A stretch of DNA of 64,000 bases. Origin: Anabaena sp. UHCC 0187. Lineage in GTDB: Bacteria; Cyanobacteriota; Cyanobacteriia; Cyanobacteriales; Nostocaceae. The stretch is taken from the NCBI RefSeq assembly GCF_009712035.1, contig NZ_VILB01000014.1, positions 88,086 to 152,085 on the forward strand, written 5' to 3'. Made by a program: the position numbers and the translations under genes. A model generated the notes under the pieces. That model made no database searches. It was not told where the DNA came from and saw only the letters and a list, made by a program, of their open reading frames with translations. Below, one piece after another: positions 10,480 through 28,836 of the stretch. The number at the start of each line of letters is the position of its first letter. Position 1 is the stretch's first letter.

Positions 10480-11676
10480 TTAACCAACAGAAATTATCTG
10501 TGGCTGAGTTGCTACCTTTTCCATGGCTGTGAAAACTTCTTGTCTAGCCCATTTATCTGCTGCCAAAATGTCATCTAATGTAGGATTTTGTGTGTGATCA
10601 TTTTGATGGCGATCGCACACAAATTCGATACACTTGGGAATATCCAAATAGTGAATTTTCTCATCTAAAAATAATGCCACAACTTGCTCATTTGCCGCAT
10701 TTAATACTGCCGGCATAGAACCACCAGCCCTACCAGCAGCATAAGCTAAACGCATACAAGGATATTTTTGATGATCTGGTTCACGGAAAGTTAAATCACC
10801 AGATTTTACTAAATTCAATCTTTCCCAATTAGTGTAAATTCGCTCCGGCCAAGATAAAGCATAAAGCAAAGGTAAACGCATATCTGGCCAACCAAGTTGG
10901 GCTAAAACTGAAGTATCTTGTAATTCTATTAACGAGTGAATAATACTTTGAGGATGAATGACAATTTCGATGTTGTCATAATCTACCCCAAATAAATAAT
11001 GAGCTTCAATTACTTCCAAACCCTTATTCATTAAGGTTGCCGAATCTACCGTGATTTTTCGCCCCATTGACCAGTTAGGATGTTTAATAGCATCAGCAAC
11101 CTTTACCTCTGGTAATTTTTCCACAGCCCAATCTCGGAAAGCACCACCGGAAGCGGTAAGTAATATCTTTCTTAAACCATCTTTAGGAACACCCTGGAGA
11201 CACTGAAAAATAGCGGAATGCTCAGAATCTGCTGGTAATAATTTCACCCCGTGTTTTTCCACCAAAGGTAACACCACAGGAGCACCGGCAATAAGAGTTT
11301 CTTTGTTTGCTAAAGCTATATCTTTACCCGCTTCAATAGCGGCAATGGTCGGTAATAAACCTGCACAACCAACAATACCAGTTACAACTGTTTGAGAATC
11401 GCCATACCTGGCAACTTCTATGACTCCTGCTTCCCCACCTAGTAAAATAGGTTGAGGATTTAAGTCTTTGATGGCTTCTTTGAGTTCTGATAATTTTTCA
11501 GCGGCAGAAATGGCGGCGATTTGGGGACGAAACTGGCGAATTTGCGCCGCAAATAGCTCCACATTTCGTCCAGCAGCTAATCCAACGATGCGGAATTTAT
11601 CGGGGTGTTCAGAGACGATATCTAAGGTTTGAGTACCAATTGAGCCAGTAGAACCCAGTAAAGTAATAGCTTTCAC
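10480..11676 (-). CDS. dxr: 1-deoxy-D-xylulose 5-phosphate reductoisomerase
   Basis: 398 residues, the normal length for DXR (IspC), which makes 2-C-methyl-D-erythritol 4-phosphate in the plastid-type MEP isoprenoid pathway using NADPH. The N-terminal nucleotide motif [13 protein letters not shown] is at residues 8-20, followed by [11 protein letters not shown], the metal/substrate residues in [14 protein letters not shown] near 150, and the conserved [19 protein letters not shown] near 205-223. It feeds carotenoid and phytyl synthesis; the CrtO-like gene is elsewhere in this window. Single gene, minus strand. Confidence 0.97.
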
Positions 11677-11853
11677 AATTATTTAAGAATTAACAGATAA
11701 TTTCAACTATAAATGGCTTGGGACTCATTGATAAGAGGAATTCCCACAATAAATTAACTCCAATCAAAACTTTTGCTATTTTCGCCATAAATGCGTAACA
11801 TTACTTAAAACTAACATTGTCATGACCTCAGAGTCAGAGAAAAACAAAAGCCT

Positions 11854-13155
11854 ATGGTTAAAGCGCAAATGGCTATCACCAAATTTATCTGGACAGACGA
11901 TTTCTTATTTCCTGCGTCTATGTGGCTGGTAAGTCGCATATTTATTTGGACTGCTATGTTGCTGATTGCCCCCAATTTACCAGCATTACAAGATGGCATT
12001 ACGCCTCATTTTGGCTGGGGAATTTTTGATGCTTGGGATAGTGTCCATTATCGAGCAATATCCACTGAAGGTTATGAATTTATTGATGATGGGAAGCAAC
12101 ATAATTTAGCATTTTTTCCCCTATTTCCTGTCAGTATTTCTATCTTCATGAAGTTCGGTTTTTCCTTTGAAATAGCCGGATTAATCATCAATAATTTGGC
12201 ATTTCTAGGAACACTTTATTGCTTATATTCTTGGATAAAAAAACAATGTGGCATCAGTGCAGCCCATTGGACAATTGCTGTCATGGCTTACTGTCCCATG
12301 TCTTTATTCACAGGAGTAATTTACACAGAAGGTTTGTATTTGTTATTGAGTACAATGGCTTTACGTGCCTTTGATCAAAAACAATATGTTTGGACAGCAA
12401 TTTGTGGGGCAATGGCAACAGCGACACGTCCCACAGGCATGGCATTAATTCCCGCATTTTTAATTACTGCTTGGAAACAAAATAAACCACCAATTGCCTA
12501 TATTGCAGGTTTATTATCTGCTACAGGGTTGTTAATATTTAGTGTGTATTGTAAGTTAAATTTTAATGATTTTTTAGCCTTTATCGCTGCACAAAAAGGA
12601 TGGCGGCCTTCCTTCGGTTTTGATTGGGAAGGTTGGTTAAATATGTTTATGCAAATTCCCTTTGGCAACAATTGGCATTTTGGTTGGGTCGAGAATGATG
12701 AAGGTGGAATTAAAGACCTTTGGTATCCGCTATTCTTTGGTCTAATTGTGATGAGTTCTTTTTGTTTATTATATTGGCGAAAATATTTCAATCCATTGAT
12801 ATTATATACTGGTTATGGGATAATTATATTATCATTAATAATTGCCGATCAGGGATTAATAAATAATTTACTGAATGTATCTATGATATTAGGTAGTACC
12901 TACCTTTTATGGTATTTCCGTCAGCAACTAACTCCAGTTATGGTAGCTTATGGTTTTTGTGGTATTGGTTTACTTTTAGCCTCTGGTGGCACAATTTCTT
13001 TAAGTCGTCTTGCTTATGGAATTGTCCCTTTGAGTGCAGCTATTGGTGTCTGCTTATCTCGTTATCCGCGTCAAGCTTATTTAGTTATGGGTTTGTTTAT
13101 CACTTTACTTGGTAAATTAGCAATAGGTTTTGCTCAAGAAATTTGGGTAGGATAG
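11854..13155 (+). CDS. PIG-V-like membrane mannosyltransferase family protein
   Basis: A 433-residue polytopic membrane protein with about ten hydrophobic helices. The first extracytoplasmic loop has the pattern FDAWDSVHYRAISTEGYEF followed by NLAFFPLFPVSI, the WDxxHY...FFPLxP signature of GPI mannosyltransferase 2 (PIG-V)-like enzymes that use lipid-linked mannose donors. A second relative lies at 17837-19234 with WDVEHYATMA and FYPLWPF. The acceptor is unknown; a role in cell-envelope glycan or glycolipid synthesis is inferred. An alternative start is the ATG at 11869 (MAITKF). The gene starts divergently from dxr. Confidence 0.75.
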   Translation: MVKAQMAITKFIWTDDFLFPASMWLVSRIFIWTAMLLIAPNLPALQDGITPHFGWGIFDAWDSVHYRAISTEGYEFIDDGKQHNLAFFPLFPVSISIFMKFGFSFEIAGLIINNLAFLGTLYCLYSWIKKQCGISAAHWTIAVMAYCPMSLFTGVIYTEGLYLLLSTMALRAFDQKQYVWTAICGAMATATRPTGMALIPAFLITAWKQNKPPIAYIAGLLSATGLLIFSVYCKLNFNDFLAFIAAQKGWRPSFGFDWEGWLNMFMQIPFGNNWHFGWVENDEGGIKDLWYPLFFGLIVMSSFCLLYWRKYFNPLILYTGYGIIILSLIIADQGLINNLLNVSMILGSTYLLWYFRQQLTPVMVAYGFCGIGLLLASGGTISLSRLAYGIVPLSAAIGVCLSRYPRQAYLVMGLFITLLGKLAIGFAQEIWVG

Positions 13156-16033: not shown

Positions 16034-17692
16034 TTAATGTTTATGAATGAGTTGCCAGTTTTTTACAGTACCAATAATTTGATATTGATTTAAAAAAGTT
16101 TTAGATATTTTAGGATTTATCCAAGCATAGCTTTCTGTTGGTAAATTTTCTATTGGTAATATTTTACCTAATTTTGGTGTATAAAAACTTAAAAGTAGAA
16201 AATGCTTGGAAATATCCACATCAGTATAATCTTGTACCTTTATATCTACTAAATTATTTTTGGGTACATCTATGATAAAGTTAATAGGATATGAATAAAT
16301 TATTTCCGCAATATTTTCTTGATTAATTTCTTTTTTGAATCCCGGATTTCTATCTCCTAAAATCCCCGTAAATCCTAACGTAGTTATGGCTAAATACGGA
16401 GATATTAACCAACTTAAAAGCCAATATTTATCAGGTAATAATTTACGTTTTTGCCAAGTCGTAATAATTGTTGCCCAACTTGCACCTAAAATGATTCCTA
16501 ATATACCATATTGTTTAATTTGTGAAGTTAAAGCAATTCCGGGTATGGTAATATCTAATATTATTAATGAACCTGCAATTATTAATAATATTCCCAATAT
16601 TGTAAATACGTTTAATACATAAAATATGATTTTGTTTAGTTTGTATTTACGCATTTGATAAATATTTTCTAAATTAAATAATCCTACTGCTGCTAATATT
16701 GCCATAAATGGTAATAGTTGTAATGGATAATAGGGGGTTCGGGTTCTAAAAATACATAAAAGCAGAAATAAAATAGTTGGATAACCTAGCAACAAGGATA
16801 AATGATATTTTTGAGAAGTTCGAGAAAACCAAACATATAAAAATCCAATTACACTGAATAAAGCCCAAGGAAAAGTATTTAAAGGTATATTCCAAAAGTA
16901 GTAAAATGTTCCAGGATTATAAGTATTATCGGCAGATAAAGTGAATAATTTACCAAATAAATCTGTAACAGGAAATAAACTATTATATTTAAAACAACTC
17001 AATATTAACCAAAGTGTTGCCGGAATAACCCCAATTATTAAACCTAAATAAATACCAACATTTGTTAAATGACGATGTTGTTTATTTTTAAATATTAAAT
17101 AAGGGATAATTGCTACCCCTGGTAAAATAATCATAAATCCCTTAATCAGAAATCCTAACCCAAAGGTAGAACCTGCTAATATTCCCCAGAATATTTTTTG
17201 ATTTTTCTGCTTAGTTCCTAATTCTTCAGCACGTAATAAAGCCCAAATTCCTAGTAATTCTACACAGACTAAAGCAGTATTTTGAGTGGCTGAACGTCCT
17301 TCAAATATCCAAATTGGCATTAAACATAGAATTATTGCTGCTAAAAAAGCAATTTTTTTATTAAAGGTAATTTTCCCAATTTGATAGGTTAATAAAACGC
17401 TAATTGTACAGGAAATAATACTAGGTAAGCGAGCATTAAAATCACTAATTCCTAATAATTTATAAATTAAGGCTATTAACCATTGGATACCAATTGTGCG
17501 ATCATAATTAGGTGTACCCCACCATTGGGGTGTTAACCAATCTTGCGTTTCTAAAATCCATCGTGCTTGCATAGCATAATAACCTTCATCATGTGCTAAT
17601 AAGCTATGATTGCCATTGGTAGCAAGTAATAATAATGCACTTAATAATAGTAAGCTTAAATGTGGATGTTTACGGATAATACTGGATATCAT
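16034..17692 (-). CDS. GT39/ArnT-like membrane glycosyltransferase
   Basis: A 552-residue polytopic membrane protein. The first periplasmic loop contains LAHDEGYYAMQARWILET followed by WGTPNYDRTIGIQWLIALIYKLLG; the Asp-Glu pair is the catalytic signature of PMT/ArnT-type (GT39 and GT83) enzymes. About 11 helices are followed by a soluble C-terminal domain of about 100 residues. These enzymes move a sugar from a polyprenyl-phosphate donor to lipid A or protein. It lies 8 bases upstream of the methyltransferase-GT2 fusion gene and is probably co-transcribed with it. Confidence 0.85.
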   Translation of the reverse strand: MISSIIRKHPHLSLLLLSALLLLATNGNHSLLAHDEGYYAMQARWILETQDWLTPQWWGTPNYDRTIGIQWLIALIYKLLGISDFNARLPSIISCTISVLLTYQIGKITFNKKIAFLAAIILCLMPIWIFEGRSATQNTALVCVELLGIWALLRAEELGTKQKNQKIFWGILAGSTFGLGFLIKGFMIILPGVAIIPYLIFKNKQHRHLTNVGIYLGLIIGVIPATLWLILSCFKYNSLFPVTDLFGKLFTLSADNTYNPGTFYYFWNIPLNTFPWALFSVIGFLYVWFSRTSQKYHLSLLLGYPTILFLLLCIFRTRTPYYPLQLLPFMAILAAVGLFNLENIYQMRKYKLNKIIFYVLNVFTILGILLIIAGSLIILDITIPGIALTSQIKQYGILGIILGASWATIITTWQKRKLLPDKYWLLSWLISPYLAITTLGFTGILGDRNPGFKKEINQENIAEIIYSYPINFIIDVPKNNLVDIKVQDYTDVDISKHFLLLSFYTPKLGKILPIENLPTESYAWINPKISKTFLNQYQIIGTVKNWQLIHKH

Positions 17693-17836
17693 TAGTTGCG
17701 GTTATATAGTTCTGTCAGCGAATAAGCAGACAATTAAGTAAACTAACGTAATTTGCGATATTTTATACATAAGCTAATTAACAGGAGAAATTATACCATC
17801 TAATGGTACGCTTGTGTTGCTATCCAATTTTCAAGG

Positions 17837-19234
17837 ATGAAAATTTATATACACCTAAATAAAATGCTCCAAAAATCAAAAAATATTAATTTGATACTAC
17901 CCTTAATTATCTGTGGTGCATTTATTCTATGTGCTGCTATAGGAATGTTGATTTATCCTGATGCTTTTCATAAGTTCTTTTCTCCATTACAGATATTTCG
18001 TGCTGTTCCTCCTGTATTACCTCATAATAGTTATTATTGGGACGTAGAACATTATGCAACAATGGCTCTTAACCCCAGTTGCAAAGCATTTTATCCCCTA
18101 TGGCCATTTATTATTCGTAACCTCTTTCATCCCCAAACTATAGAACAAGCAGCACATTATTTTTTATTGTTGTCTACGGTAATATTTTTCGTCACTAATT
18201 TTTTACTATTTTGGGTTTTCCAAACAGCCTTACAACGCACATATTTAGCTTTTTGGATCATGTTAGCTTATACCGTTAATCCGATGGCAATATTTAGAGT
18301 TATCGGTTACACAGAAAGCCTATTTTCTTTGTTTAGTACGTTATTTATTTGGGTTTGTTTACCAAATAGCAAAATCAATCAAAATCTAAAAATCGGGTTT
18401 ATTTTTATAATCACATTTTTAATGAGTTTAACTCGACCTATATTAATTCAAATATTTTTTGCTAGTGCATTAACTTTAATAACTATTATTAGTTTGGAAA
18501 TTTTACGATCTAATAGATATTCTTGGCAGAATTTATTAGTTAATCTTAAAAAATATCAGCATGAAACGAAAATGACAGTAACTATATGGGTTGCAGCATT
18601 ACTAGGTTATTCTGTATATGGTAGCTTTTGTCTAAAGACTAGAGGTAATTTTTTTGCTCCTTTTGATGATCAGAGGCTTTGGGGAAAGTCACTAGGAATT
18701 CATTTAGAAATACTATTATTTCCTAAATCACCTTTGTTTGATATTATAGCTTTTTATTTACCCTTAATAATTCTATTATTATCCCTAACTTTTACATATT
18801 ACAAATTTAGTAAACAAAATAATATCATTTTCTTACCAAGATATAATTTATGGTGGAGTATCTTCTATTTATATCCACCTGTATTAATTTTTATATATGG
18901 TTTCAACTTTATGAAATCAATAAAAACAAAAACAAATTTATCTAAAATTAATATTCCTGATTATACGAATAAGTTAGCTATTAATTATGTATTCTGGTTT
19001 AGTCTTTACTTTACTACTGCCCATTCATTGATTAACTTTTTTACATTTGACCGCTTAATAAGTTTAGGTAGATATATATTAGCAACTCCATTTTTCTTCA
19101 TTTCTTTAGGCTATTTATATCGCTGTATTCCTGGAAAAATCAAATATCAAACATTGTTTTTTATGACTTTTATTTCTGCTTTAGCTTTATTAGATCAATG
19201 GATTAGATATGGTCAAGATAAATGGCTAGGCTAA
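17837..19234 (+). CDS. PIG-V-like membrane mannosyltransferase family protein (second copy)
   Basis: 465 residues, polytopic. The first large loop has YYWDVEHYATMALNP followed by FYPLWPFIIRNLF, matching the WDxxHY/FxPLxP signature of PIG-V-type enzymes. It is a distant paralogue of the gene at 11854-13155. It is divergent from the GT39 gene, with about 145 bases between them that hold both promoters. AAGG just upstream supports the ATG at 17837; an ATG at residue 10 is possible. Substrate unknown; inferred to act in the same envelope-glycan pathway. Confidence 0.7.
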   Translation: MKIYIHLNKMLQKSKNINLILPLIICGAFILCAAIGMLIYPDAFHKFFSPLQIFRAVPPVLPHNSYYWDVEHYATMALNPSCKAFYPLWPFIIRNLFHPQTIEQAAHYFLLLSTVIFFVTNFLLFWVFQTALQRTYLAFWIMLAYTVNPMAIFRVIGYTESLFSLFSTLFIWVCLPNSKINQNLKIGFIFIITFLMSLTRPILIQIFFASALTLITIISLEILRSNRYSWQNLLVNLKKYQHETKMTVTIWVAALLGYSVYGSFCLKTRGNFFAPFDDQRLWGKSLGIHLEILLFPKSPLFDIIAFYLPLIILLLSLTFTYYKFSKQNNIIFLPRYNLWWSIFYLYPPVLIFIYGFNFMKSIKTKTNLSKINIPDYTNKLAINYVFWFSLYFTTAHSLINFFTFDRLISLGRYILATPFFFISLGYLYRCIPGKIKYQTLFFMTFISALALLDQWIRYGQDKWLG

Positions 19235-19333
19235 TTATTAGGTTATATGATATTTGTTGCATGAAGGTTAAAAATGTATGTCAATTCCATAATCATCTGA
19301 TGCTTGTTTGGTGCGAAGGGCTGTGATAATTGC

Positions 19334-19388
19334 GTTATTAATGGTGGGTATTGTTGGTTCTTTTTGCGTCAACCCAACCCACTTACTA
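19334..19388. repeat. Island repeat, copy 1 (short form)
   Basis: The tract reads ttattaatggtgggtattg... and ends aacccaacccac, with an internal inverted repeat. It is the conserved end part of the repeat that recurs at 22130-22190, 23060-23105, 23880-23917 and 24580-24632. It lies 20 bases beyond the stop of the MazF-like remnant. On the minus strand the next 60 bases (to 19271) encode a short open tail ending ASDDYGIDIHF and a stop, which may be the 3' scrap of a lost gene. Confidence 0.7.
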
Positions 19389-19407
19389 CTGAATCAATAA
19401 AAAATGA

Positions 19408-19626
19408 TTAATTGCTGTTTAAACTAAGATATCTCCGCAAAATGTTTTGTGTCTGTTCTAATAATTCTGCTTCTAATTCTCCTAATTGTTGAGTTAAACA
19501 AATTTTGTCAAATGTCATGGGTTCAACGCAGATTAAAAGACTATCTACAGAAAGTCCATTTTGCGCTGATGTAGGTACTTCAACTACTGCTGGTGAAATG
19601 CGGGGGTTATTCGGTTTTGCGCTCAT
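19408..19626 (-). pseudogene. Remnant of a PemK/MazF-type toxin (C-terminal part)
   Basis: 72 residues. The segment NGLSVDSLLIC, then MTFDKICLTQQLGEL and ILRRYLSL, aligns by eye with the C-terminal half of MazF/PemK endoribonucleases (NGL..DS, DK..L...LG, I...YLGL). The N-terminal half with the catalytic arginine is missing, and no antitoxin gene is next to it, so it is probably a non-functional fragment. ATG at 19626 has AAGG eight bases upstream; a GTG at 19635 is also in frame. It could alternatively be an unrelated small protein. It abuts the IS fragment on its 5' side, with 4 bases of overlap. Confidence 0.45.
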
Positions 19627-20348
19627 ATCTTGCACCTTGAAATAGTAATGTCAATTCCATGACTAAGTGCTAAGGGTCGAAGTCGTTCAATGTCAAGTAA
19701 TAACAAAGACAGGACTAAATGAGGAAGAAAAGTAGAGAGTGCAAGAAAAGCAGCTTTACCCCAGTCCAAAGAATCAGATAAAGAAGATGAAATATATGCC
19801 CAATATGCTAATAAATAGGCAGTCATAGACAAGATTAACCAACGATAAACCCCTAAAAGAGTGCCTTGTCCAAATTTGTCTAAACCAAAGCGATGTTTAG
19901 CAGTTTTGAACCAACCTTCAATTTGCCAACGGCGTTTACCCCACCAAGAAATAGTGCTAGGTTTAATGGGTTTTGTAGAGATAACATATCTTTTCAGAAA
20001 CTGACCATTCTCGCGTTTGAAATAATACCAAGAAAGGGTAACAGGAAAATCTAATCCAATGAGTTGAACTTGTCTTCCTCGACGATGTAAAAGTTTAACA
20101 AGAGTGCCATTAATTAATTTACGATTACAACCAATACCAAGGACAGCATGATATTTAAGTTTACGAATACCGTTGATAAAATCTTTAGTGCCAAAAGCTG
20201 TGTCAGCTAGAATTTTCACCTCGAATTTTTTGGTAAAATCTTTTGGTAAGTTACGTACCATTCGTAGTGCCATCTGAGCAGGACTGGCTGTACCTTTACC
20301 TCTCCAGACACGAAAATTCCAGGGGATACGCCATTTTCCAACTACCAA
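19623..20348 (-). mobile_element. Partial IS4-like (DDE) transposase, N-terminus missing
   Basis: An open stretch of 241 codons that encodes the C-terminal part of a DDE transposase. It contains an Asp in VKILADTAFG and the YREK-like signature RRWQIEGWFKTAKHRFGLDKF typical of the IS4 superfamily, then a hydrophobic C-terminal tail. A complete transposase of this type is about 350-400 residues, so the first third or more is gone. Its first codons are fused to the TOPRIM gene upstream: at about 20336-20342 the sequence changes from TOPRIM to transposase in a different frame. No inverted repeats were identified at either end. It is dead as an autonomous element. Confidence 0.8.
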
Positions 20349-20634
20349 TTAATCCTATAATTCTTTCATAACCAGATGCACTCAAAGAATTATACATATC
20401 TCTCATGTCTGAAACAACATTATTATCACTACCAGAGTTATAAACTAATACATGAAATTTTGTTGTACTAATGAGAGGATCACTAGCAATTACTGTAGTA
20501 ATTCTATTTCCTTGCTTACCATTTATAGAACGTACTTCTATAGAAATGTTATTTCTACCAGCAATTTCCTTCAGTAATTTTTCTACAAAAATCTGTTCTG
20601 TCTGTCCCTCCACAAAAATAGCTAATTTTTTCAC
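20296..20634 (-). pseudogene. TOPRIM/DUF4276-like nuclease partner, truncated by the IS fragment
   Basis: The 112-residue reading frame begins MKKLAIFVEGQTEQIFVEKLL; VEGQTE is the TOPRIM-type glutamate motif seen in DUF4276/AbiLii-like partners of OLD-like ATPases. About residue 98, after YERIIGLIG, the frame enters IS sequence and adds about 14 foreign residues before a stop. Normal DUF4276 proteins are about 180-230 residues, so the C-terminal half, with the DxD part of the TOPRIM fold, is lost. ATGA overlap (20631-20634) with the ATPase gene shows the two were one operon. Function is probably abolished. Confidence 0.75.
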
Positions 20635-21821
20635 TGATTTATAGACTCCTCATTCTGAAAACCTTCTACATAGAACTGACTCGCAAAAAAGTCAAAATTA
20701 TTGAGTCCAGTAAACTTGAAATCATCAAATATTTGTTTTGAATTATTTATATTATGCAGCTTCGCTAATCCTGTTTTACGTTCAATGACAGACCAAAATT
20801 CTAAAGGAACACCATTCATAATAAAGCGATCATTGGAAGTCATTATTAGCTGAACTAATCCAGTTTTAGCCTTATCAATAAGTAATTTAATCATTGAAGA
20901 TGATCTCTCAAAATCAAGTCCTTCACCTATATCATCTATTAAGATGCAACTGGATTTTCCAGATAAAAGAGAATAATTAACTTGAATAATTAGAGACAAG
21001 GCTCTAAACATACCTTGAGACATTGAATATTGTTCTGTCTTCTGTCTTAAGTCACTTTCCTTAACATAAAGACATTCTGGTTTTCTATCTATAAATTGAT
21101 CTGTTTCGTCTTCAAGAAAAATAGATGGTGTTTTTGTACCAACTTCAGTTATTGCGTAACCAACAGATAACATATCTGATTTTATAGCTTCAATAAAAGG
21201 TGTTCCTAATTCTTCCTCTCCTAATTTAAAGATGCCAATTACTTGTTCTGTGTCCTTAAAATCTATTTTTTTTCTGAGTGATTCTTTTTTTCTAGACTTA
21301 ACTAATGCAAAAACACTCCTTCCTAACTCTGTACCAAATTGATAGTATCTTAACGTACTTGCCCAAATATAAAGATTTTCAAAAAAAGGATGTTGAATAG
21401 AGTCCCTGCGTTTTAAAGCAGCAATTTCATCAATAGGAGTTTGAAAATCAATGTCTACGTTTAATTTGTTAGCCCAAATTTTACCTTCTCCTGATTTGTT
21501 TCTATTCAGATATATCTTACTCCCAATAGTTAACTTCTCTTCTACAACTGTGCCATTATCTACTATTAATACATAGACTTGCTTATCATCTGGACTATGA
21601 GAATTGAATGTTAAAGTCCATTCTTTGAAAATTCTGTCAGATTTAAGATTTTGGTCACCAGATAGCAAATTAGATAGTAAGTTAATCGCTCTGAGAATTT
21701 TAGATTTACCAGAAGCATTTTTACCAACAATCAAGTTTACATTACCTAATTGGCAACCATCTACACGCCATTCACTAGGCATCCCTTTATCTTCACAATA
21801 GTGAACTGAATCTAATTTCAT
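20631..21821 (-). CDS. AAA/ABC-type ATPase of an OLD-like defence pair
   Basis: 396 residues. Walker A is at about residues 33-40 (VGKNASGKSK), the Walker B region is CILIDDIGEGLDF near residue 290, and SMSQGMFRALSLI before it takes the ABC signature position. This is the SMC-like ATPase with a coiled insert found in OLD, AbiL, PARIS and similar two-gene anti-phage systems, here with a downstream TOPRIM gene. Since the partner is truncated, the system is likely inactive in this strain. The gene lies in the minus-strand accessory island between repeat copies 1 and 2. Confidence 0.8.
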   Translation of the reverse strand: MKLDSVHYCEDKGMPSEWRVDGCQLGNVNLIVGKNASGKSKILRAINLLSNLLSGDQNLKSDRIFKEWTLTFNSHSPDDKQVYVLIVDNGTVVEEKLTIGSKIYLNRNKSGEGKIWANKLNVDIDFQTPIDEIAALKRRDSIQHPFFENLYIWASTLRYYQFGTELGRSVFALVKSRKKESLRKKIDFKDTEQVIGIFKLGEEELGTPFIEAIKSDMLSVGYAITEVGTKTPSIFLEDETDQFIDRKPECLYVKESDLRQKTEQYSMSQGMFRALSLIIQVNYSLLSGKSSCILIDDIGEGLDFERSSSMIKLLIDKAKTGLVQLIMTSNDRFIMNGVPLEFWSVIERKTGLAKLHNINNSKQIFDDFKFTGLNNFDFFASQFYVEGFQNEESINQ

Positions 21822-21936
21822 ATAATGTTCATTCCGTTAATGATAATGTATTTAGCATTTGCTGTAGTTGAGAATTATAAATCTGTTATTTAAACTATAC
21901 ATCAGTAGAGACTGTAAAAGTCGTACAGATATGCTT

Positions 21937-22190
21937 TGCTATCGCTCTATTAATCCCTAGTAATGCTTGAGTGAGATAACGTAAACAGATACAGAGTAAG
22001 CTTTTCAGGTGCGAACTGCTTGCAGCAGCGCTAGTTCCCTCCGGGACGCACTCGCGTTCGCTATCGCTCTATTAATCCCTAGTAATGGTTGAGTGAGATA
22101 ATGTAAAAAGATACAGAGTTTTTGGGCTGTAATTTAGTGTTATTAATGGTGGGTATTGTTGGGTTTCATTACGTCAACCTAACCTACTTT
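21937..22190. repeat. Island repeat, copy 2, with a nested palindromic repeat
   Basis: The block gctatcgctctattaatccc...gagtgagataacgtaaacag...acagagt occurs twice (about 21937-21999 and 22059-22119). Between the two lies a palindromic REP-like piece (about 22009-22058: gcgaactgcttgcagcagcg...gggacgcactcgcgttcgc). The second block continues into tttagtgttattaatggtgggtattg and ends aacctaacctac at 22187, three bases before the PIN toxin stop codon. This also covers most of the 369-base gap after the ATPase gene. Confidence 0.8.
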
Positions 22191-22601
22191 TCAAAGCATT
22201 TTTAATAACTCTTCTGGCAATATTGCTGGTACTAAAGACGCTACAAAATCAACCTTATTTCTTGTGACAATTATTTCTACACCTGCTGCTGTTGCGGCTG
22301 CACTTGTCACTGCATCTTCAAAATCTTTAATTGGACTTTGCAAAGCTTGATGAATTACTTCATTTGTAACGCTGGCAATTTGAATATGTTGCAATAAATT
22401 TTCTATTAATTTACGTGCTGCTTCGCTACCAATTTGGCGGCGTAAAATATAGAAAATATTGGTGACAGCGTGTCCTGAAACAAAGCCTTGCACCTGTTTT
22501 TTCATGACTGTATTTAATGCTTGTGCTGAGGCAACAACAAACGGTTGACGCTGTGCTAAAATATCTAGCAAAACATCGCTGTCAAATAATACCTGCTTCA
22601 A
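22191..22601 (-). CDS. PIN-domain toxin (VapC-like)
   Basis: 136 residues of a PIN-fold ribonuclease. The first acidic residue is in LFDSDVLLDILAQR (residues 5-18), and the later ones in SPIKDFEDAVTSAAA and VTRNKVDF. Typical PIN toxins cut tRNA or rRNA and are neutralised by a cognate antitoxin. The antitoxin gene is immediately upstream with a 4-base ATGA overlap (22598-22601). The repeat copy 2 ends three bases downstream. Confidence 0.9.
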   Translation of the reverse strand: MKQVLFDSDVLLDILAQRQPFVVASAQALNTVMKKQVQGFVSGHAVTNIFYILRRQIGSEAARKLIENLLQHIQIASVTNEVIHQALQSPIKDFEDAVTSAAATAAGVEIIVTRNKVDFVASLVPAILPEELLKML

Positions 22602-22843
22602 CTATATTTCTCCTCTAGGTAATTAACATAACTTTCTTCTGGATTTTCTGATTCTAAGCTAATTACACCTATTAAGCTTTGTGTCCAGGGGTCAAGTTCA
22701 GATAAGGTTTCTAGGGTGGGTTGAGGAGGAATAGAGGATAGGGTTTCTTGTTGAATTGATGCTAGTACGGTTTGCACAAAATTCCAGCGTTCTTTGATTG
22801 GTAATTTTAATACCTGTTCTTGCAATTGTTGTAATTGAATCAT
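22598..22843 (-). CDS. Antitoxin partner of the PIN toxin
   Basis: An 81-residue small acidic protein starting MIQLQQLQEQVLKLPIKERW. The layout, ending ENPEESYVNYLEEKYS and overlapping the PIN toxin gene by 4 bases, is that of cyanobacterial PIN-associated antitoxins. The N-terminal helical segment with LPIKERWNFVQTVL resembles the region that in related antitoxins carries the dimerisation/DNA-binding part. No classical DNA-binding motif can be assigned with certainty. Confidence 0.8.
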   Translation of the reverse strand: MIQLQQLQEQVLKLPIKERWNFVQTVLASIQQETLSSIPPQPTLETLSELDPWTQSLIGVISLESENPEESYVNYLEEKYS

Positions 22844-22893
22844 TACTTTGCTGTTAATTCTATCATTTACTATGTTAACAGATGGTTGATTTT

Positions 22894-23105
22894 GTTCGGG
22901 TGATAATTCTCAGGTGAGATGAATCTTTCTAGGTGTATCTATGATGGTTCTATTGTCTTCTCTTATTTACACGATAGCAGGGATCGCCCCAGTAATCCCT
23001 AGTAATGCTTGAGTGAGATAATGTAAACAGATACAGGGTTTTTGGGTTGGAATTTAGTGTTATTAATTGTGGGTATTGTTAGGTTGCCTTGTATTAACCC
23101 AAACT
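22894..23105. repeat. Island repeat, copy 3 (full length)
   Basis: Starts ttcgggtgataattctcagg, passes through ggtgtatctatgatggttct and cttatttacacgatag, continues into gagtgagataatgtaaacag and gtgttattaattgtgggtat, and ends acccaaactac. It runs from just after the antitoxin start region to eight bases before the Uma2 stop codon. Copies 4 and 5 share the same order of blocks. Confidence 0.85.
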
Positions 23106-23113
23106 ACAAACTA

Positions 23114-23707
23114 CTACTTTTTAATACCTTTAATAAATGCTGTTCTTGCATCAATGATGGAAGGCATCAAAACACAGTTCATCAATAAATCTATATCTAA
23201 ATCTGCCAATAATTCACTTTGATTAATTTGCTCATAATTATCGTTTTTAAGATGATATAAATACAATTTATTATTTTCCCAAAACCAGACTTCGGTAATA
23301 TTAAATCTTTTATATTTTTCTAGTTTATCAATACTGCCACTGGTAATATTAATTTCAATTGCTAAATCTGGATTTTCCTTTTTTTCTCCGATGTAATAAG
23401 ATTCATCAGGTTCAAAGGAAGCGCTCTTTTCTTTTGCACGACGAGTAGCACTACCTACTGGAATCAGATTTATACCTATTTCACAGGAATATAATTCTAG
23501 TAAAAAACCAAGAATGGTTTTAATCATTTCATGTTGTTCACTCAGCGTCATAAATTCGATGCACCCATCAAGATAAGTTATCCGCAAACCTGCTGCGTCT
23601 GCGGTTAAGGTTTCTATTGTTTCAAATTCCTCCCAGGTGTAATAACCAGGTAGAAGAAATCGCTGTTCGGAAATTGTGGTGGTTTTGTTTAAGGTTTGGA
23701 TAGTCAT
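23114..23707 (-). CDS. Uma2 (DUF820) family putative endonuclease
   Basis: 197 residues, the usual length for this PD-(D/E)XK-fold family, which is greatly expanded in cyanobacteria. Visible parts are LPGYYTWEEFETIE near the N-terminus, ITYLDGCIEFMTLSEQHE, FEPDESYYIGE, and the core acidic strand NPDLAIEINITSGSIDKLEKYKR near residue 120 with the catalytic D/E-x-K type pattern. Function in cells is unknown; many members are suspected mobile-associated nucleases. It stands alone between repeat copies 3 and 4. Confidence 0.9.
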   Translation of the reverse strand: MTIQTLNKTTTISEQRFLLPGYYTWEEFETIETLTADAAGLRITYLDGCIEFMTLSEQHEMIKTILGFLLELYSCEIGINLIPVGSATRRAKEKSASFEPDESYYIGEKKENPDLAIEINITSGSIDKLEKYKRFNITEVWFWENNKLYLYHLKNDNYEQINQSELLADLDIDLLMNCVLMPSIIDARTAFIKGIKK

Positions 23708-23748
23708 AGTAATTTTATGGTTATGACTTTAATCTTGATTATAACTCA

Positions 23749-23917
23749 TGGTCGGGTGATAATTCTTAGGTGAGGTGAATATTTCCAGGTGTACCTGTAA
23801 TGGTTCTATTCTATTCTCTTCTCTTATTTACATGATAGCTGGTGATGGTTGGGTGAGATAATGTGAATAGATACAGAGTTATTAATGGTGGGTTATGTTA
23901 TTGCTAACCCACGGAGA
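23749..23917. repeat. Island repeat, copy 4
   Basis: Contains the ordered blocks gataattcttaggtgaggtg, ggtgtacctgtaatggttct, cttatttacatgatagctgg and tgggtgagataatgtgaata, but lacks the gggtttttgggttgtaattt part present in copies 3 and 5. It ends in the hairpin gtgggttatgttattgctaacccac (here 23887-23911), adjacent to the hicA stop codon. Confidence 0.8.
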
Positions 23918-23920
23918 GTA

Positions 23921-24139
23921 TTACTTATTTCCTAAAAATTCATCTACGGTAATTCCTGCTTGTCTAATTAAACTTCTGAGTAAACCTGGTGCTAGTTCTT
24001 TATGATTAGGAACTGATAAAATGGGTTTTGATTCGTGCCAAAGTATGATATGACTTCCGGTTTGATGGTCTACAGCATAGCCAAATTTTTCAAAGATTTT
24101 GACTGTTTGTTTACCGGAAATATTTGATAAGCGTCCCAT
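23921..24139 (-). CDS. hicA: HicA mRNA interferase toxin
   Basis: 72 residues with the dsRBD-like HicA fold. The pattern is KIFEKFGYAVDHQTGSHIIL, with the catalytic histidine in GSH, then SVPNHKELAPGLLRSLIRQAG. HicA cleaves mRNA and is blocked by HicB. The ATG directly follows the hicB stop codon (24140), with a GGGGAAG ribosome binding site inside hicB. Confidence 0.95.
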   Translation of the reverse strand: MGRLSNISGKQTVKIFEKFGYAVDHQTGSHIILWHESKPILSVPNHKELAPGLLRSLIRQAGITVDEFLGNK

Positions 24140-24358
24140 TTATACTACTACTTCCCCTACAAAAGATTGAGATTCTTTGGTTACATAGGGTTTTCCATGT
24201 TTTTCTAATACGTGAAGATAGCCTTTGATAGCATCTTTGATATTTTCAATTGCTTCATCTAAGCTTTTACCTTGACTGACACAACCAGGAAGTTCTGGTA
24301 CTTCAGCAACGTAACCTAGATATTCTGAATCATAGGTGAATATTACTTGAAATTTCAT
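24140..24358 (-). CDS. hicB: HicB antitoxin
   Basis: 72 residues, the partial RNase H-like HicB fold: FTYDSEYLGYVAEVPELPGC, then VSQGKSLDEAIENIKDAIKGYL. It lacks a C-terminal DNA-binding domain, as do the short HicB forms found in cyanobacteria. It is encoded first in the operon, with no gap before hicA. A purine-rich AGGAGG-type ribosome binding site (cctcctg on the plus strand) precedes the ATG. Confidence 0.95.
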   Translation of the reverse strand: MKFQVIFTYDSEYLGYVAEVPELPGCVSQGKSLDEAIENIKDAIKGYLHVLEKHGKPYVTKESQSFVGEVVV

Positions 24359-24436
24359 ACAGGAGGGGTTTGTATATTTGTGTGCTGATTATTAATATAT
24401 CTAATTTTCTTGGCTAGTTGTTCGAGGATTTGATTT

Positions 24437-24632
24437 AGTTCGGGTGATAATTCTCAGGTGAGGCGAATGTTTCCAGGTGTATCTGTGATGGTTCTATTGT
24501 CTTCTCTTATTTACATGATAGTTGGTGATGGTTGGGTGAGATGATGTGAACAGATACAGGGTTTTTGGGTTGTAATTTAGTGTTATTAATGGTGAATATT
24601 GTTGAGTTTCCTTCCTCAATCTAACCTACGTA
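24437..24632. repeat. Island repeat, copy 5 (full length)
   Basis: Same block order as copy 3: gataattctcaggtgaggcg, ggtgtatctgtgatggttct, cttatttacatgatagttgg, tgggtgagatgatgtgaaca, gtgttattaatggtgaatat, ending aatctaacctac at 24630. The last 17 bases overlap the 3' end of the ROK-like gene, so its last residues (VRRLD) are encoded inside the repeat. Confidence 0.85.
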
Positions 24633-25545
24633 CTAAGTCTGTAATTGACTGTTCATAAACAAAACGCTCTATCCAAGCTTGTCCTACTCCTAAAAGTGCA
24701 GGTTTAATACCTTCTCTTATTTTAATTTTATAAATTTTTCCTTGTAGATATTGTTGTAATTGAAGTTCATCTATAGAAGAAGTCCGTCCACCTCCTAGAA
24801 TAACAGATTGAAATTGGAGTTTTTCTTTAAGGCTATCTATAATCCAATAAATACGTTCAGTATACAATTTATTTTTCTGAGTTTGATTATAATCAGGATG
24901 CTCTTTTTCTATCCAATTAAAGAATGGCTGACCAGCTAAAATATGTATGTTGCCTTCAAAACCATTTGGCCATTTTCGTGCAATTACCTCACCTTCAAAT
25001 GGCAAAATATAGGGGGTTTTCTTTGTAATTACAGCACAGCCAATACCACCCCCAAGAGTTAAGCACAGAATAGGTTTTTTCAATTTCTTCTGATTTAAAC
25101 AATTAAATGCAAATGAAACAGCATCATTTAGTAGTAAAATATTAGAAATACCTAATTTATCATGAATTATCCTACTTAGTTCTTCTGGCCATTCCCAATA
25201 TTTAGGAGTTGTAGCGGTCTTATTATAAACTTGGCAGCCTAATGAAAGTGCTAAACCATTTATAGATTGATTTTCAATCCATTCATTTAGCCATGATAAA
25301 AAATTTTCAAAATTATTTTCACCAAAAAATTCTTCACTATTTTTGTTTTGTGGTTCATCTATTTTTAAAGATTGAAGTCTATGTTCCTGTATTTTAAACT
25401 TGAGTAAAGCAGCCTTAGATCGCATATGCCCAATTTCAACACAGAGGATACTATAATCACCATCAGTAAATGATGTTGAGCGTGTTATTATCTTGTTTAA
25501 CAATTCCCATAATTTTACTACCTGATCTACTGGTGAAAATTCCAT
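24616..25545 (-). CDS. ROK-like (hexokinase/actin-fold) protein
   Basis: 309 residues. The fold signatures are an N-terminal phosphate-1-like strand YSILCVEIGHMRSKAAL, the central LLLNDAVSFAFNC, the glycine-rich LTLGGGIGCAVI near residue 170, and GVGQAWIE near the C-terminus, which together suggest an ASKHA/ROK ATPase. The usual ROK zinc-binding motif CxCGxxGC is absent, so its activity may differ from sugar kinases. It stands alone between repeat copy 5 and the GxxExxY gene. I cannot name a substrate. Confidence 0.65.
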   Translation of the reverse strand: MEFSPVDQVVKLWELLNKIITRSTSFTDGDYSILCVEIGHMRSKAALLKFKIQEHRLQSLKIDEPQNKNSEEFFGENNFENFLSWLNEWIENQSINGLALSLGCQVYNKTATTPKYWEWPEELSRIIHDKLGISNILLLNDAVSFAFNCLNQKKLKKPILCLTLGGGIGCAVITKKTPYILPFEGEVIARKWPNGFEGNIHILAGQPFFNWIEKEHPDYNQTQKNKLYTERIYWIIDSLKEKLQFQSVILGGGRTSSIDELQLQQYLQGKIYKIKIREGIKPALLGVGQAWIERFVYEQSITDLVRRLD

Positions 25546-25670
25546 TAGTACAATCCTTTATAAGTAAAATTTTGTATATTCATTCTAACCACACCCAAGT
25601 AAAAACCTAGATGGAGTATTTATATTATATTAATTTTTATAGTTTTGATACATGAAATTCCCCTAATTCA

Positions 25671-25705
25671 GAGGAACGCGGATGAACGCGGATGAACGCA
25701 GATGA
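25671..25705. repeat. Decamer-type repeat (CGCGGATGAA)
   Basis: Three tandem copies of a 10-mer (gaacgcggat, gaacgcggat, gaacgcagat). A complementary tract (gcgttcatct x2, then gttaatctgcgtacatctgc) lies at 26078-26178 at the other side of the GxxExxY gene, giving it inverted flanking repeats. Confidence 0.85.
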
Positions 25706-25707
25706 GT

Positions 25708-26097
25708 TTAGAAATTACGGACAACACGCTTTATCTCCACTTTGGGATTACCAAAATTAATTAATAGACATAGAGTAAGTCCAGTTGTTTTCAGATAATT
25801 CATACATTGGGCAAAATGCTTAGTATCTAGTGCTGTTACTGCCTTTAACTCCACAATAATAGCGTTTTCCACCAACAAATCAGCCCTATAGTTACCCACA
25901 ACTATACCGTCATACCAAACTTCCAACATTTTCTGCGGCTCAACCAACAAACCAGTTTTCCGTAACTCATGCACCAGCGCATTTTCATAAACCGCTTCCA
26001 AAAAACCAACCCCCAAAGTATTACCCACCTTAAAAGCACACCCAATAACCTGCTCCGTAACCCTATTAAAATCTAATCTGCGTTCATCTGCGTTCAT
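25708..26097 (-). CDS. GxxExxY protein (PD-(D/E)XK_3 nuclease-like family)
   Basis: 129 residues. The family signature is GVGFLEAVYENALVHEL with the GxxExxY motif, then YRADLLVENAIIVELKA with the D...ExK nuclease-type pattern, and a C-terminal INFGNPKVEIKRVVRN. The role is unknown. The start is set at 26097 (MNADERRLDFN), which has GGAGG nine bases upstream; the frame stays open back to 26136. The N-terminal residues MNADERR are themselves encoded by the flanking decamer repeat, a common feature of this family. Confidence 0.85.
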   Translation of the reverse strand: MNADERRLDFNRVTEQVIGCAFKVGNTLGVGFLEAVYENALVHELRKTGLLVEPQKMLEVWYDGIVVGNYRADLLVENAIIVELKAVTALDTKHFAQCMNYLKTTGLTLCLLINFGNPKVEIKRVVRNF

Positions 26098-26178
26098 CTG
26101 CGTTTCCCTCCAATAAAAATGAGCAAATGTACGCAACCCAACGCCAAAACATCCGCGTTAATCTGCGTACATCTGCGG
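26078..26178. repeat. Decamer-type repeat upstream of the GxxExxY gene
   Basis: Tandem gcgttcatct units at 26080-26103 and a diverged cluster (ccgcgttaatctgcgtacat, ctgcggtt) at 26151-26178. They are the inverse complement of the tract at 25671-25705. They overlap the start codon of the GxxExxY gene. Confidence 0.8.
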
Positions 26179-26188
26179 TTAAAAAATC

Positions 26189-28402
26189 TTAATGCACCAA
26201 CTCAATAGCCCGCTTAGTCAACGCTTCCGCAGTCAAACCATTAAAAGCCATCAACTCACCCGCACTAGCGGTAGTTTCCCCACGCTTCCAGGCAAAAGAA
26301 TCACGCTGAGAATTACTGCGTAACATGATTGGTTCTAACATCGCCGCAGCGCCACCTGTCACACCAATTAAGGCATCTCCACCAAACAATTGCTCAAAAT
26401 CGGCATCACTTAAAAAACCGTTATCAGGTTCAGAACAAGTATCCCAAGCAGTATCATGAGGACGATATAAACGACGAGGATTGATAATAGAAACAATCTT
26501 CACACCAATACCTTCAGTTTCTAAAAAAGCCGCCGCTTCAAACACAGGAATTAATGTCAAATCGCCAATGACAGCAAATACAACAGTCTTCCCACCAGCC
26601 ACTTCATGTAATAACACCGCACCATCAATTAAGCCTTTTTCAGTTTGGGCAAAGGTGCTACGAATTGGCAAAGGAGACTTACTAGCAGTAATGACAATGC
26701 CCTTATTTTTTGTTTGCAAAGCCCAGTCATAACAGACTTGAATACTGTTAGCATCTGGGGGAAATAATGGGAAGACATTTCCCGTTCTCATCAATGATGC
26801 AAAATAAGCCTCTATTTCTGGTCTTTGGTGTGTCCAACCGTTGCGTCCTTGTTCCAATGCCCCGGCTGTAAATAATGTAATTGTTGACGGTGTTTTGCGG
26901 CGTAATTCTGCCATTGCTTGGGTGACAGTTTGCCAAATTGGTAAACCATTGATGGCAAAAGATTCATAGGAACACCACAAAGTTCTCGCCCCCATTAAGG
27001 ATAAACCAGCCGCTAAACCAGCACAAGCATCTTCGCTCAAAGGTTCGTAAACTTGACCTCCTGGGGCTTGGTTATAGGTATCATCGGTTGTAGGGTGAAT
27101 GATTTTTAATGCTTCATTAATATTACCAATTCCTGAAGCGGCGTTACCATCGGCGTTAGTCACAAGGAAGTTTTTATCTTTATTTCCTACTACTCCCACT
27201 AGCTTACCCATGACAGTTGTAGAAACTTGGGGAACTGCGCCAACTTGATATTCTACTAATGGTAATTCGCCAATTTCTGCTAAGGGTAATTCAAATTCTG
27301 TGACTACAGTTTTCGCAGCCGGACCACCTCCAGCCCGTTCCGCATTTGTCCGCACAATTTGCCATGCTGGGGCTGATAATGCCCGTTTTTGCAAGGCGCT
27401 GACAATGTGGGGCGCGTCTAAGGTATCTTTCGGATAGAGGTTGTGGGATTTTGCCCCTAAAGCGTGAACCCCTGCCCCTTTGAGTTGTTTGATAATAAAT
27501 ACAGTCAATTTACCGCCGAGTGCTGAACGGGCAGCTTTATCCATACCTACTAATACGGCTTTGGTAAATTCTAGGCGCTTGGCAAAGGAAAATACCGTAC
27601 TATCAACATATTCACCTGCTTGGTTTTGGTCGTCAAAATCTTTGGCGTTGACTAATACCACTTCGGCAAAACCGTTACCTTGCCAATAGGCGATCATCTC
27701 TGCGTTGGTTTTCAAAGATACCATGCTGTGGTGTTCTTGGCTGTAACCGTTCCACACTAACACGGGTAAGAAGTTGGTAGCGGTGGGGTAAGCGGTGTTA
27801 AAATGTGCCATTGCACTCATGATATAGGGTTCACCCAGTCCCCCGTCTCCCAGGGTGAAGGGGAAGAGTTTATCACGGTGCAACAGGGCTGCGGCCATGG
27901 CGAAATGTTGTCCTTGTCCCAGGGGGCCAGCCGGTGCGAGAATACCGGGAATATAGCCGGATAGGTGTCCTAATAATCCATGCTTTTCTCGAAAGCGATC
28001 GCCCAATTGTTGTACTGTAGAAATGCCCATGTCTTCTAGTGATCTGTCGAGGAACATGGCACTATAGAAACCGGGGGCGTGATGTCCAACTTCGGTGATA
28101 ATGTTTTTATGTCCCAACATGACCAAAGCTGCATAAGCCTCCGCTTGGCTGGCAAAACCGCCGGGATGTCCAGAAGCCTTACTAGCACTGACGTGGAGGG
28201 TGAGGTAGCGCAGGGCATCAGCCGCCAGTAAGGTTTGATATACTGCTGTTGTATCGGTAGGATTTGTTATAGATATATTACCAGATGCGATCGCTGGTGT
28301 TGCCCCATAAGTTTCAAAATCTGGCAATGCTTCCCCAAAATATTGTATTCCTTCGCAAAAATTTGGAACTGCGGAAGCTGTTTTTGATGTAACTACTGTC
28401 AT
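26189..28402 (-). CDS. Transketolase/phosphoketolase-like ThDP-dependent enzyme
   Basis: 737 residues. The N-terminal ThDP-binding half shows SKASGHPGGFASQAEAYAAL near residue 75 and LGDGGLGEPYIMSAM near 182, where the GDG motif binds Mg-ThDP. The pyrimidine-binding half carries ACAGLAAGLSLMGARTLWC and SITLFTAGALEQGRNGW. Such proteins are found in many cyanobacteria and are labelled transketolase, phosphoketolase or xylulose 5-phosphate 3-epimerase in databases. From sequence alone I can support only a sugar-phosphate ThDP enzyme of this superfamily. It starts at an ATG at 28402, preceded by AAGGTACTCAGC, and is probably monocistronic. Confidence 0.8.
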   Translation of the reverse strand: MTVVTSKTASAVPNFCEGIQYFGEALPDFETYGATPAIASGNISITNPTDTTAVYQTLLAADALRYLTLHVSASKASGHPGGFASQAEAYAALVMLGHKNIITEVGHHAPGFYSAMFLDRSLEDMGISTVQQLGDRFREKHGLLGHLSGYIPGILAPAGPLGQGQHFAMAAALLHRDKLFPFTLGDGGLGEPYIMSAMAHFNTAYPTATNFLPVLVWNGYSQEHHSMVSLKTNAEMIAYWQGNGFAEVVLVNAKDFDDQNQAGEYVDSTVFSFAKRLEFTKAVLVGMDKAARSALGGKLTVFIIKQLKGAGVHALGAKSHNLYPKDTLDAPHIVSALQKRALSAPAWQIVRTNAERAGGGPAAKTVVTEFELPLAEIGELPLVEYQVGAVPQVSTTVMGKLVGVVGNKDKNFLVTNADGNAASGIGNINEALKIIHPTTDDTYNQAPGGQVYEPLSEDACAGLAAGLSLMGARTLWCSYESFAINGLPIWQTVTQAMAELRRKTPSTITLFTAGALEQGRNGWTHQRPEIEAYFASLMRTGNVFPLFPPDANSIQVCYDWALQTKNKGIVITASKSPLPIRSTFAQTEKGLIDGAVLLHEVAGGKTVVFAVIGDLTLIPVFEAAAFLETEGIGVKIVSIINPRRLYRPHDTAWDTCSEPDNGFLSDADFEQLFGGDALIGVTGGAAAMLEPIMLRSNSQRDSFAWKRGETTASAGELMAFNGLTAEALTKRAIELVH

Positions 28403-28836
28403 GCTGAGTACCTTAATAAAATCGAAAAAAACTAGAGATTCTGGTTTAATGTCACCAAAATTTTACATCTTTAAGGATCTAATAGTTAATCGCATTTTCG
28501 CAATATCACCATAAGTAGGTTAAATGAACCACGTTCGCGGAGCGTCCCGAAGGGATAGGAGCGAAGTACACGAAGGAAGAAGGGAAGAAGATAGTTATCG
28601 TCAGTAACTCAGGCACATGGCGAAAAATCATTACTTATGATACCAAGAAATTAATTGCCTATTAAAATGGTACTAAAAGGTTGTCGTTAACCAGGTTATC
28701 AAAAACTGGAAGTTGAGAATAAGTTGATTGATTTTTAAGTTTTTGTTTCTTGTCAAGTTCCAATTACCCCAAGAGGGTTTATAGTTAAAGTTAAGTTATT
28801 CTGTAATTAATTGTGTAATCAAAATAGGAGAAAATT
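28403..28836. other. Intergenic region with P450 promoter and nested repeat
   Basis: 434 bases between the divergent ThDP enzyme gene and the P450 gene. It contains the nested repeat entry at 28522-28600. The part 28680-28836 is AT-rich and leads to the P450 start with TAGGAG nine bases before the ATG. No gene seen. Confidence 0.6.
28522..28600. repeat. Dispersed AACCACG...ACACGAAGG repeat with a 28-bp REP-like insert
   Basis: Reads aaatgaaccac, then a 28-bp palindrome-rich insert (28533-28560, gttcgcggagcgtcccgaag...), then gcgaagtacacgaaggaaga. The version without insert is at 63701-63740, and a version with two inserts on the minus strand is at 57610-57690. Confidence 0.85.

Follow-up and report, generated by a model that had tools for sequence, protein, structure and literature searches.

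A stretch of 64,000 nucleotides from Anabaena sp. UHCC 0187 (contig NZ_VILB01000014.1, positions 88,086 to 152,085; hereafter the window) carries, downstream of the phosphoketolase-like gene xfp, a row of toxin-antitoxin (TA) and defence modules on its minus strand. These are hicBA, a Uma2-type gene, a pair with a PIN toxin, and an ATPase with a TOPRIM partner, and copies of a repeat stand between them (19334-24632). We consider the locus best read as a chromosomal TA and defence hotspot downstream of xfp that is common to several genera of bloom-forming cyanobacteria. In related genomes the core of the repeat is nearly confined to the array, the modules are shuffled in order and fixed in orientation, their junctions to the repeat are mostly constant, module DNA shows an excess of similarity between species, and the core is homogenised within genomes. 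The modules are therefore cassette-like in behaviour, as an earlier note made from the letters of the window alone had proposed, and its account of the gene order, the shared strand and the positions of the repeats is borne out by a re-reading of the window. The agent that moves them is probably homologous recombination in shared, lineage-specific linkers.

The repeat, its core and its chromosomal site

Comparison of the copies within the window divides the repeat into three parts: a palindrome (P), a unit of about 38 bp (M) and a tail (T). The earlier note had counted five copies of one repeat; the repeat is real, but the copies are unequal, with M and T together in three, M alone in one and neither in one. 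Repeat 5 (24425-24632, with P at about 24582-24632) and repeat 3 (22886-23109, in which the M core bears a small insert) consist of P, M and T. Repeat 4 (23752-23912) has M and T preceded by a palindrome of another kind, repeat 2 (21927-22189) has P and two M units with a GC-rich, GCGATAGCGAACGCGAG..-type insert between them and no T, and repeat 1 (19334-19388) has P and a short linker only; all five lie on the minus strand. Relative to the end of the preceding open reading frame (ORF) the repeats start at -24, 38, 24, 4 and 20 bp, which agrees roughly with the 20 bases or so given earlier, although in other genomes the distance depends on the module.

A search of the genome of this strain with the 208-bp repeat 5 gives five matches at E<=0.01, all at this locus, and the best non-self match (1.1e-50) leaves no room for chance. 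The palindrome (GGTTGGGTT..AACCCAAC, of the gttgggt..acctaac type) had been described as the terminal part of the repeat, but it is abundant and dispersed across the same genome: with up to two mismatches the pattern has 44 forward and 42 reverse matches, most sites being counted on both strands because P is nearly self-complementary. Hence the array-specific element is the M+T core of about 100 bp, in which M reads CCCTGTATCTGTTYACATYATCTCACYYAACCATYAC and is followed by T. Judged by the scattered copies of miniature inverted-repeat transposable elements (MITE) or repetitive extragenic palindromes (REP), the core is no such element, given that its copies in this genome stand at the array only, whereas P does show the scatter. 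P was also rejected as a recombination site because it is genome-wide and undetected beside many modules. A scan of positions 17500-28500 finds no Rfam family above its gathering score (the sole match, snoR71 at 23.8 bits versus 40, lies on the opposite strand inside hicB), and an RNA family was accordingly rejected; a plasmid or phage origin was rejected because a search of 72,556 plasmid and 50,697 phage records with repeat 3 gave no match, and tRNA-associated integration because the window holds no tRNA.

For the comparison with relatives, 'genus' denotes 16 species with one genome per species, to which we added two samples from the family (145 and 140 genomes) and one of 243 genomes from across the order; only some of the first candidates in these samples were scored, and the counts are lower bounds. 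The repeat is matched in all 16 genus species. Among the matches listed, their number runs from 3 (genome G011) to 57 (G012) and the core is nearly confined to the array across the genus; some core matches in G012, G005 and G006 lie tens of kilobases or more away from it, and on the opposite side of xfp G002 carries a small copy in reverse orientation. In the order-wide sample the core occurs in at least 9 of 243 genomes, all from one family, and the named relatives in which the M motif is found are Dolichospermum, Aphanizomenon, Anabaena, Trichormus, Sphaerospermopsis, Cuspidothrix and one uncultured cyanobacterium. A gene order kept in relatives, or a repeat just as common beside unrelated genes, had been named as signs against cassettes; relatives do not keep the order, and the core is not common beside unrelated genes.

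The xfp protein is present in at least 138 of 140 family genomes, and the array lies downstream of xfp in most genomes whose contigs permit checking. The two are on the same fetched piece in 21 loci, in which 266 of 268 M/T matches are oriented away from xfp; for G001, G008, G009, G068 and G039 the fetched piece holds no xfp and linkage was not judged. Of 40 further xfp loci from the family, 20 have one or more module homologues within the fetched piece, at distances of up to about 16 kb downstream of xfp, which is not a frequency because the loci were hand-picked, spread over genera and taken partly where modules near xfp were already known. The homologues in G036 lie far off, beside the c40 block; this block (c40-c42) is found further downstream in 13 loci, is inverted in G036 and in G046 has no modules in between. 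Variable TA and defence cargo is thus found at one conserved site, as in a hotspot.

The linker at this site is not the same everywhere. Between the same modules, G093, G115 and G040 have linker X, which is different from M/T (10 matches in the three genomes, all inside the array, and none in G000, G045 and G053). By eye, some modules at linker-X loci retain T tails, and X and M/T have the words TGTTTAC / TGTAAATA in common; a distant kinship of the two is possible on these letters. In G011, G048, G045, G053 and G090 the linker seems to be a parD antitoxin leader with the start of its gene, multiplied between modules, several copies having stops or being truncated. This linker is mostly within the array, with one match outside it at G011:C17, and some of its matches in G107 and G039 are on contigs not linked to xfp. 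Different linkers in different lineages at one site fit homology better than the specific site of one enzyme.

Module order, junctions and core homogenisation

About 19 recurrent TA or defence modules were followed across the loci, with ORFs of at least 60 aa from a simple script, clusters at 50% identity or more and module names taken from one member each. Scanned members include PIN, MazF/PemK, ParE, HicA, HigB, a papain-fold toxin, an Mrr-like restriction domain and Uma2 (PADLOC PDC-S17). The DUF4258 module has an MqsA-like partner below cut-off, the Dzb module is assigned through DzbA (PADLOC 1.5e-144) with its second gene named by position only, and several other partners match no family and are called antitoxins by position only. 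Vap1, Vap2 and Vap3 have a similar promoter-like leader upstream (about AGTTTATAATAGAATCATACCGAAAAATTTTACTCAATT, by eye), and with a leader common to different TA modules the modules themselves look mosaic.

Module order between genomes is close to random. In the 32 of 42 loci with at least four modules, 142 of 721 eligible adjacencies are kept (0.197), compared with 0.149 (standard deviation 0.020) in shuffled order. Many genome pairs differ at the locus by a whole module between the same neighbours: ParDE1 is followed directly by Vap2 in G055 and G067 but by Vap1 and then Vap2 in G132, and the ParDE1-Vap1 pair of G132 has HicB in between in G119. Orientation relative to the array is fixed in 263 of 264 genes, with six modules pointing back to xfp. 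Each module also has its own junctions, a typical T end upstream and a typical distance to M downstream, that are mostly constant across genomes. Examples are Uma2 (T end at 91 in 14 of 18), HicBA (T106 and 66 bp, 4 of 4), Mrr (T106 and 71 bp, 4 of 4), MazA (T66, 6 of 7) and Vap3, in which M begins 8 bp past the stop in 5 of 5. In 294 of 451 comparisons between genomes, module DNA is more similar than xfp by 2 points or more; the lead is 5 points or more in 159, and in 12 module DNA is less similar by 5 points or more, an excess that is only a rough sign of transfer given the single yardstick gene and the diverged pairs that drop out.

To locate where modules meet, we started from the 153 repeat blocks that are flanked by two genes, kept the 102 in which both genes lie within 150 bp of the block, and built profiles from 80 of these or from 44 single-M blocks. 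Copies with the same upstream module agree in the left flank and copies with the same downstream module agree in the T tail, and the M core tracks neither clearly. Among the 80 copies, cores (79-118) from one genome resemble each other more than cores from different genomes do, by a difference of 0.023 that none of 300 label shuffles reaches; the corresponding excess is 0.039 in T (4 of 300 shuffles) and -0.008 in the left flank, 13-78 (246 of 300). The core therefore looks homogenised within genomes. Most pairs of its variable sites 94, 99, 107, 111 and 115 show all four combinations (99-111 lacks one), where several counts rest on one or two copies and recurrent transitions could yield the same pattern. 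Ends of high-identity blocks lie outside ORFs in 97 of 120 cases on the query side and 107 of 120 on the subject side, with 39% of the array length outside ORFs, and they are spread over linker and flanks with no single point. On the query side, 35 of the 120 fall in linker classes (20% of the array length), 62 in other intergenic DNA (20%) and 23 in ORFs (61%). A separate observation concerns the array of G012 (L034, about 11472-12851), which has a block of 15 tandem M matches separated by a few kinds of short GC-rich spacers (GCGATAGCGAAGCGCTGCTGCAAGCAGTTCGC).

Probable exchange of modules between linkers

Genes that alternate with a repeat recall integrons, and the earlier note had drawn that parallel, which does not extend to membership. 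The integron integrase TIGR02249 is found above cut-off in none of the 16 genus genomes and none of 16 others, in a search for which 14 control genomes also gave nothing above cut-off and no positive control therefore passed it; with 195 bits for a broken integrase in G040, the search is nevertheless able to find relatives. The attC box order, RYYYAAC ... GTTRRRY, occurs in 0 of 80 copies compared with a mean of 2.26 in mononucleotide shuffles, and the RYYYAAC box alone in 72 of 80. Unusual folding, which had been suggested as a check, is not seen on either strand of the consensus core (z of +1.26 and +0.77 relative to shuffles, one sequence folded); linker X, again as one sequence, reaches a modest -1.84. 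We thus reject an integron on integrase, box order and folding, and, with attC sites found by neither box order nor folding, we also reject a CALIN, a cluster of attC sites without an integrase (PMC8618304).

Remnants of integrases do occur elsewhere. One in G040 (C126:5840-6867, L162) is broken, matches with 195 and 87 bits, has seven stops in its first piece and lies beside a 500-aa gene; it is not on the contig of the array, and its surroundings show neither direct repeats of at least 40 bp nor any module match. A small fragment in G081, of another genus (C1:4628713-4628826, L163), lies beside what by eye seems to be the same gene. Together the two suggest an old, lost integron in the family. 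The tyrosine-recombinase or phage-integrase matches that occur in every genus genome are weak ones, mostly in open frames of 400-530 aa. Many genomes have about three such matches in long frames, which in G011 and G002 are within about 75 kb of each other, and we presume that these may be the heterocyst excision recombinases.

With no integrase or integron sites detected, ordinary recombination at the shared linkers is the likeliest way for the modules to change places. We favour homologous recombination given that the linkers are lineage-specific, the core is homogenised and block ends fall mostly outside ORFs without a single point. Each module bears its own junction to the linker, a typical T end upstream and a typical distance to M downstream. 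DNA taken in from relatives, or DNA from elsewhere in the same array, would pair with the two linkers that bound a module, and the module would then be replaced, inserted or deleted whole with its orientation kept. RecA-type recombination would be the agent, uptake of foreign DNA would supply modules, and phages or addiction may select for them. The earlier note had offered recombination between repeats as a simpler explanation, and it is the better-supported mechanism.

Several points weigh against it. No recombination event is observed directly, with one genome per species, and a core that is confined, conserved and oriented in one way could just as well be the target of site-specific recombination. 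Adjacencies are still kept slightly more often than in shuffles, and the junctions are not fully constant, with T ends of 89, 103 and 77 in Vap2 and wide variation in Dzb. The coverage and clustering limits drop diverged module pairs and thereby inflate module similarity relative to xfp. The tracking of modules by the repeat is mostly a matter of where the repeat stops: over aligned positions only, same-upstream pairs agree at 0.874 versus 0.852 (13-36) and same-downstream pairs at a modest 0.919 versus 0.870 (186-205). The mapping of block ends is crude and includes pairs without an xfp value, such as G012/G013, and some modules are also found away from the xfp site, such as PIN3 in G142 (C1:1050108) and Uma2 in G067 (C2:1589956).

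A dedicated, unrecognised site-specific recombinase acting on the linker core, a functional parallel to integrons with another enzyme and another site, is unlikely but has points in its favour: the conserved core is nearly exclusive and its matches almost all point one way, the module junctions are characteristic, and tandem series of M units arise with no genes among them, as empty cassettes would. However, the tyrosine-recombinase matches found in every genus genome are weak (serine, Y1 and other recombinases were not surveyed), three different linkers occupy one site, the stretch from xfp to the first linker has no ORF cluster that is conserved from locus to locus, with the array-adjacent genes annotated in part, and the folding of the core is ordinary. 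Equally doubtful is the wider form of this idea, an integron-like TA and defence platform of the Nostocaceae that would have evolved apart from integrons, with an enzyme acting at the exclusive linker core of each lineage and a site changed at least twice at one address.

We think it distinctly improbable that the linkers are selected regulatory or terminator sequences and that the array changes by illegitimate recombination or insertion sequence (IS) activity, the repeat being uninvolved. The linkers do separate operons, modules in the window are broken by an IS fragment (19623-20348), and in some arrays (G045, G011 and G048) M/T linkers are few or missing among the modules. The fixed orientation, the differences by whole modules and a core homogenised within genomes nevertheless speak for an involved repeat, and three different linkers at one place argue against one common regulatory role. 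A decayed chromosomal integron or CALIN with drifted attC sites would explain the shared plan, the TA cargo, the frequent RYYYAAC box and the remnants in G040 and G081, but it is very improbable given the missing box order, the core folding, the setting of the G040 remnant and modules that by eye seem to bear their own promoters.

Genes of the window and related systems

Pfam finds the cargo that had been named from the letters, all of it on the minus strand. The conserved left anchor is xfp (26189-28402, 737 aa; XFP, XFP_N and Transket_pyr). Beside it, a 142-aa ORF (25708-26136) stands between 40-nt inverted repeats that are 85% complementary and CGCAGATGAA-rich (25670-26109), and looks like a separate small mobile-like unit. 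The last gene before the array is a 309-aa ORF (24616-25545), for which the label ROK-like is not supported, given that no Pfam family at E<=0.01 and no PADLOC family at E<=0.001 is found; kinship to ORFs near xfp in related arrays was rejected because BLASTP against five others gave no match. Then follow hicB (24140-24358, 72 aa; HicB_lk_antitox 2.8e-9) and hicA (23921-24139, 72 aa; HicA_toxin 2e-19), antitoxin and toxin respectively, and a 197-aa Uma2-type protein that is a phage-defence candidate (23114-23707; Uma2 7.1e-15, PADLOC PDC-S17 5.9e-77). The PIN pair consists of an 81-aa partner, an antitoxin by position with a sub-threshold DUF6364 match only (22598-22843), and a 136-aa PIN-domain toxin (22191-22601; PIN_3 1.8e-28).

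The last module begins with an AbiLi- or AriA-like ATPase of 396 aa (20631-21821; AAA_21 1.8e-11, PADLOC AbiLi 1.3e-18 and AriA 2.9e-17). The N-terminal part of its TOPRIM partner (20296-20634; OLD-like_TOPRIM 8.1e-5, PADLOC HEC-01B 2.1e-8) runs into the IS transposase fragment (19623-20348; DDE_Tnp_1 1.2e-10), and a C-terminal MazF/PemK toxin remnant of cluster c10, the longest member of which has 123 aa, comes last (19408-19635; PemK_toxin, profile 43-108 of 109). The IS fragment thus connects the start of the TOPRIM gene to the end of mazF, and 19408-20634 looks as if two modules had been fused with loss of the intervening linker.

Our literature search, which covered neither subscription papers nor preprints, found no description of this locus or of any cyanobacterial TA cassette array. 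If our reading is true, an integrase is not needed for defence and TA cassette arrays to arise and persist at one address in several genera, with lineage-specific linkers. The locus makes it testable how bloom-forming bacteria keep a stock of swappable phage-defence modules, and its natural set of replaceable linkers could separate homologous from site-specific exchange.

In sedentary chromosomal integrons such as the Vibrio superintegron, small modules, of which many are TA or anti-phage modules, stand in rows with a conserved lineage-specific repeat between them and variable content (PMC8618304, PMC12409362). The array shares this plan. It differs in lacking an integrase above cut-off and the attC box order or fold, in having mostly two-gene modules, in either orientation and with apparent promoters of their own, and in a linker that changes wholly between lineages at one chromosomal site. 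With a CALIN it shares a cassette-like array with no nearby integrase, but attC sites are not found here. Defence islands and chromosomal hotspots hold TA and defence genes between core genes, and the array resembles them in that its TA and defence genes occupy a single place whose flanks are conserved (xfp and, further downstream in 13 loci, the c40-c42 block); we know of no ordinary hotspot in which most modules are separated by a nearly exclusive repeat. In the modular theory of phages, short common sequences between functional modules permit whole-module recombination, from which the array differs by being chromosomal, by having its linkers between TA pairs and by homogenising these linkers within a genome.

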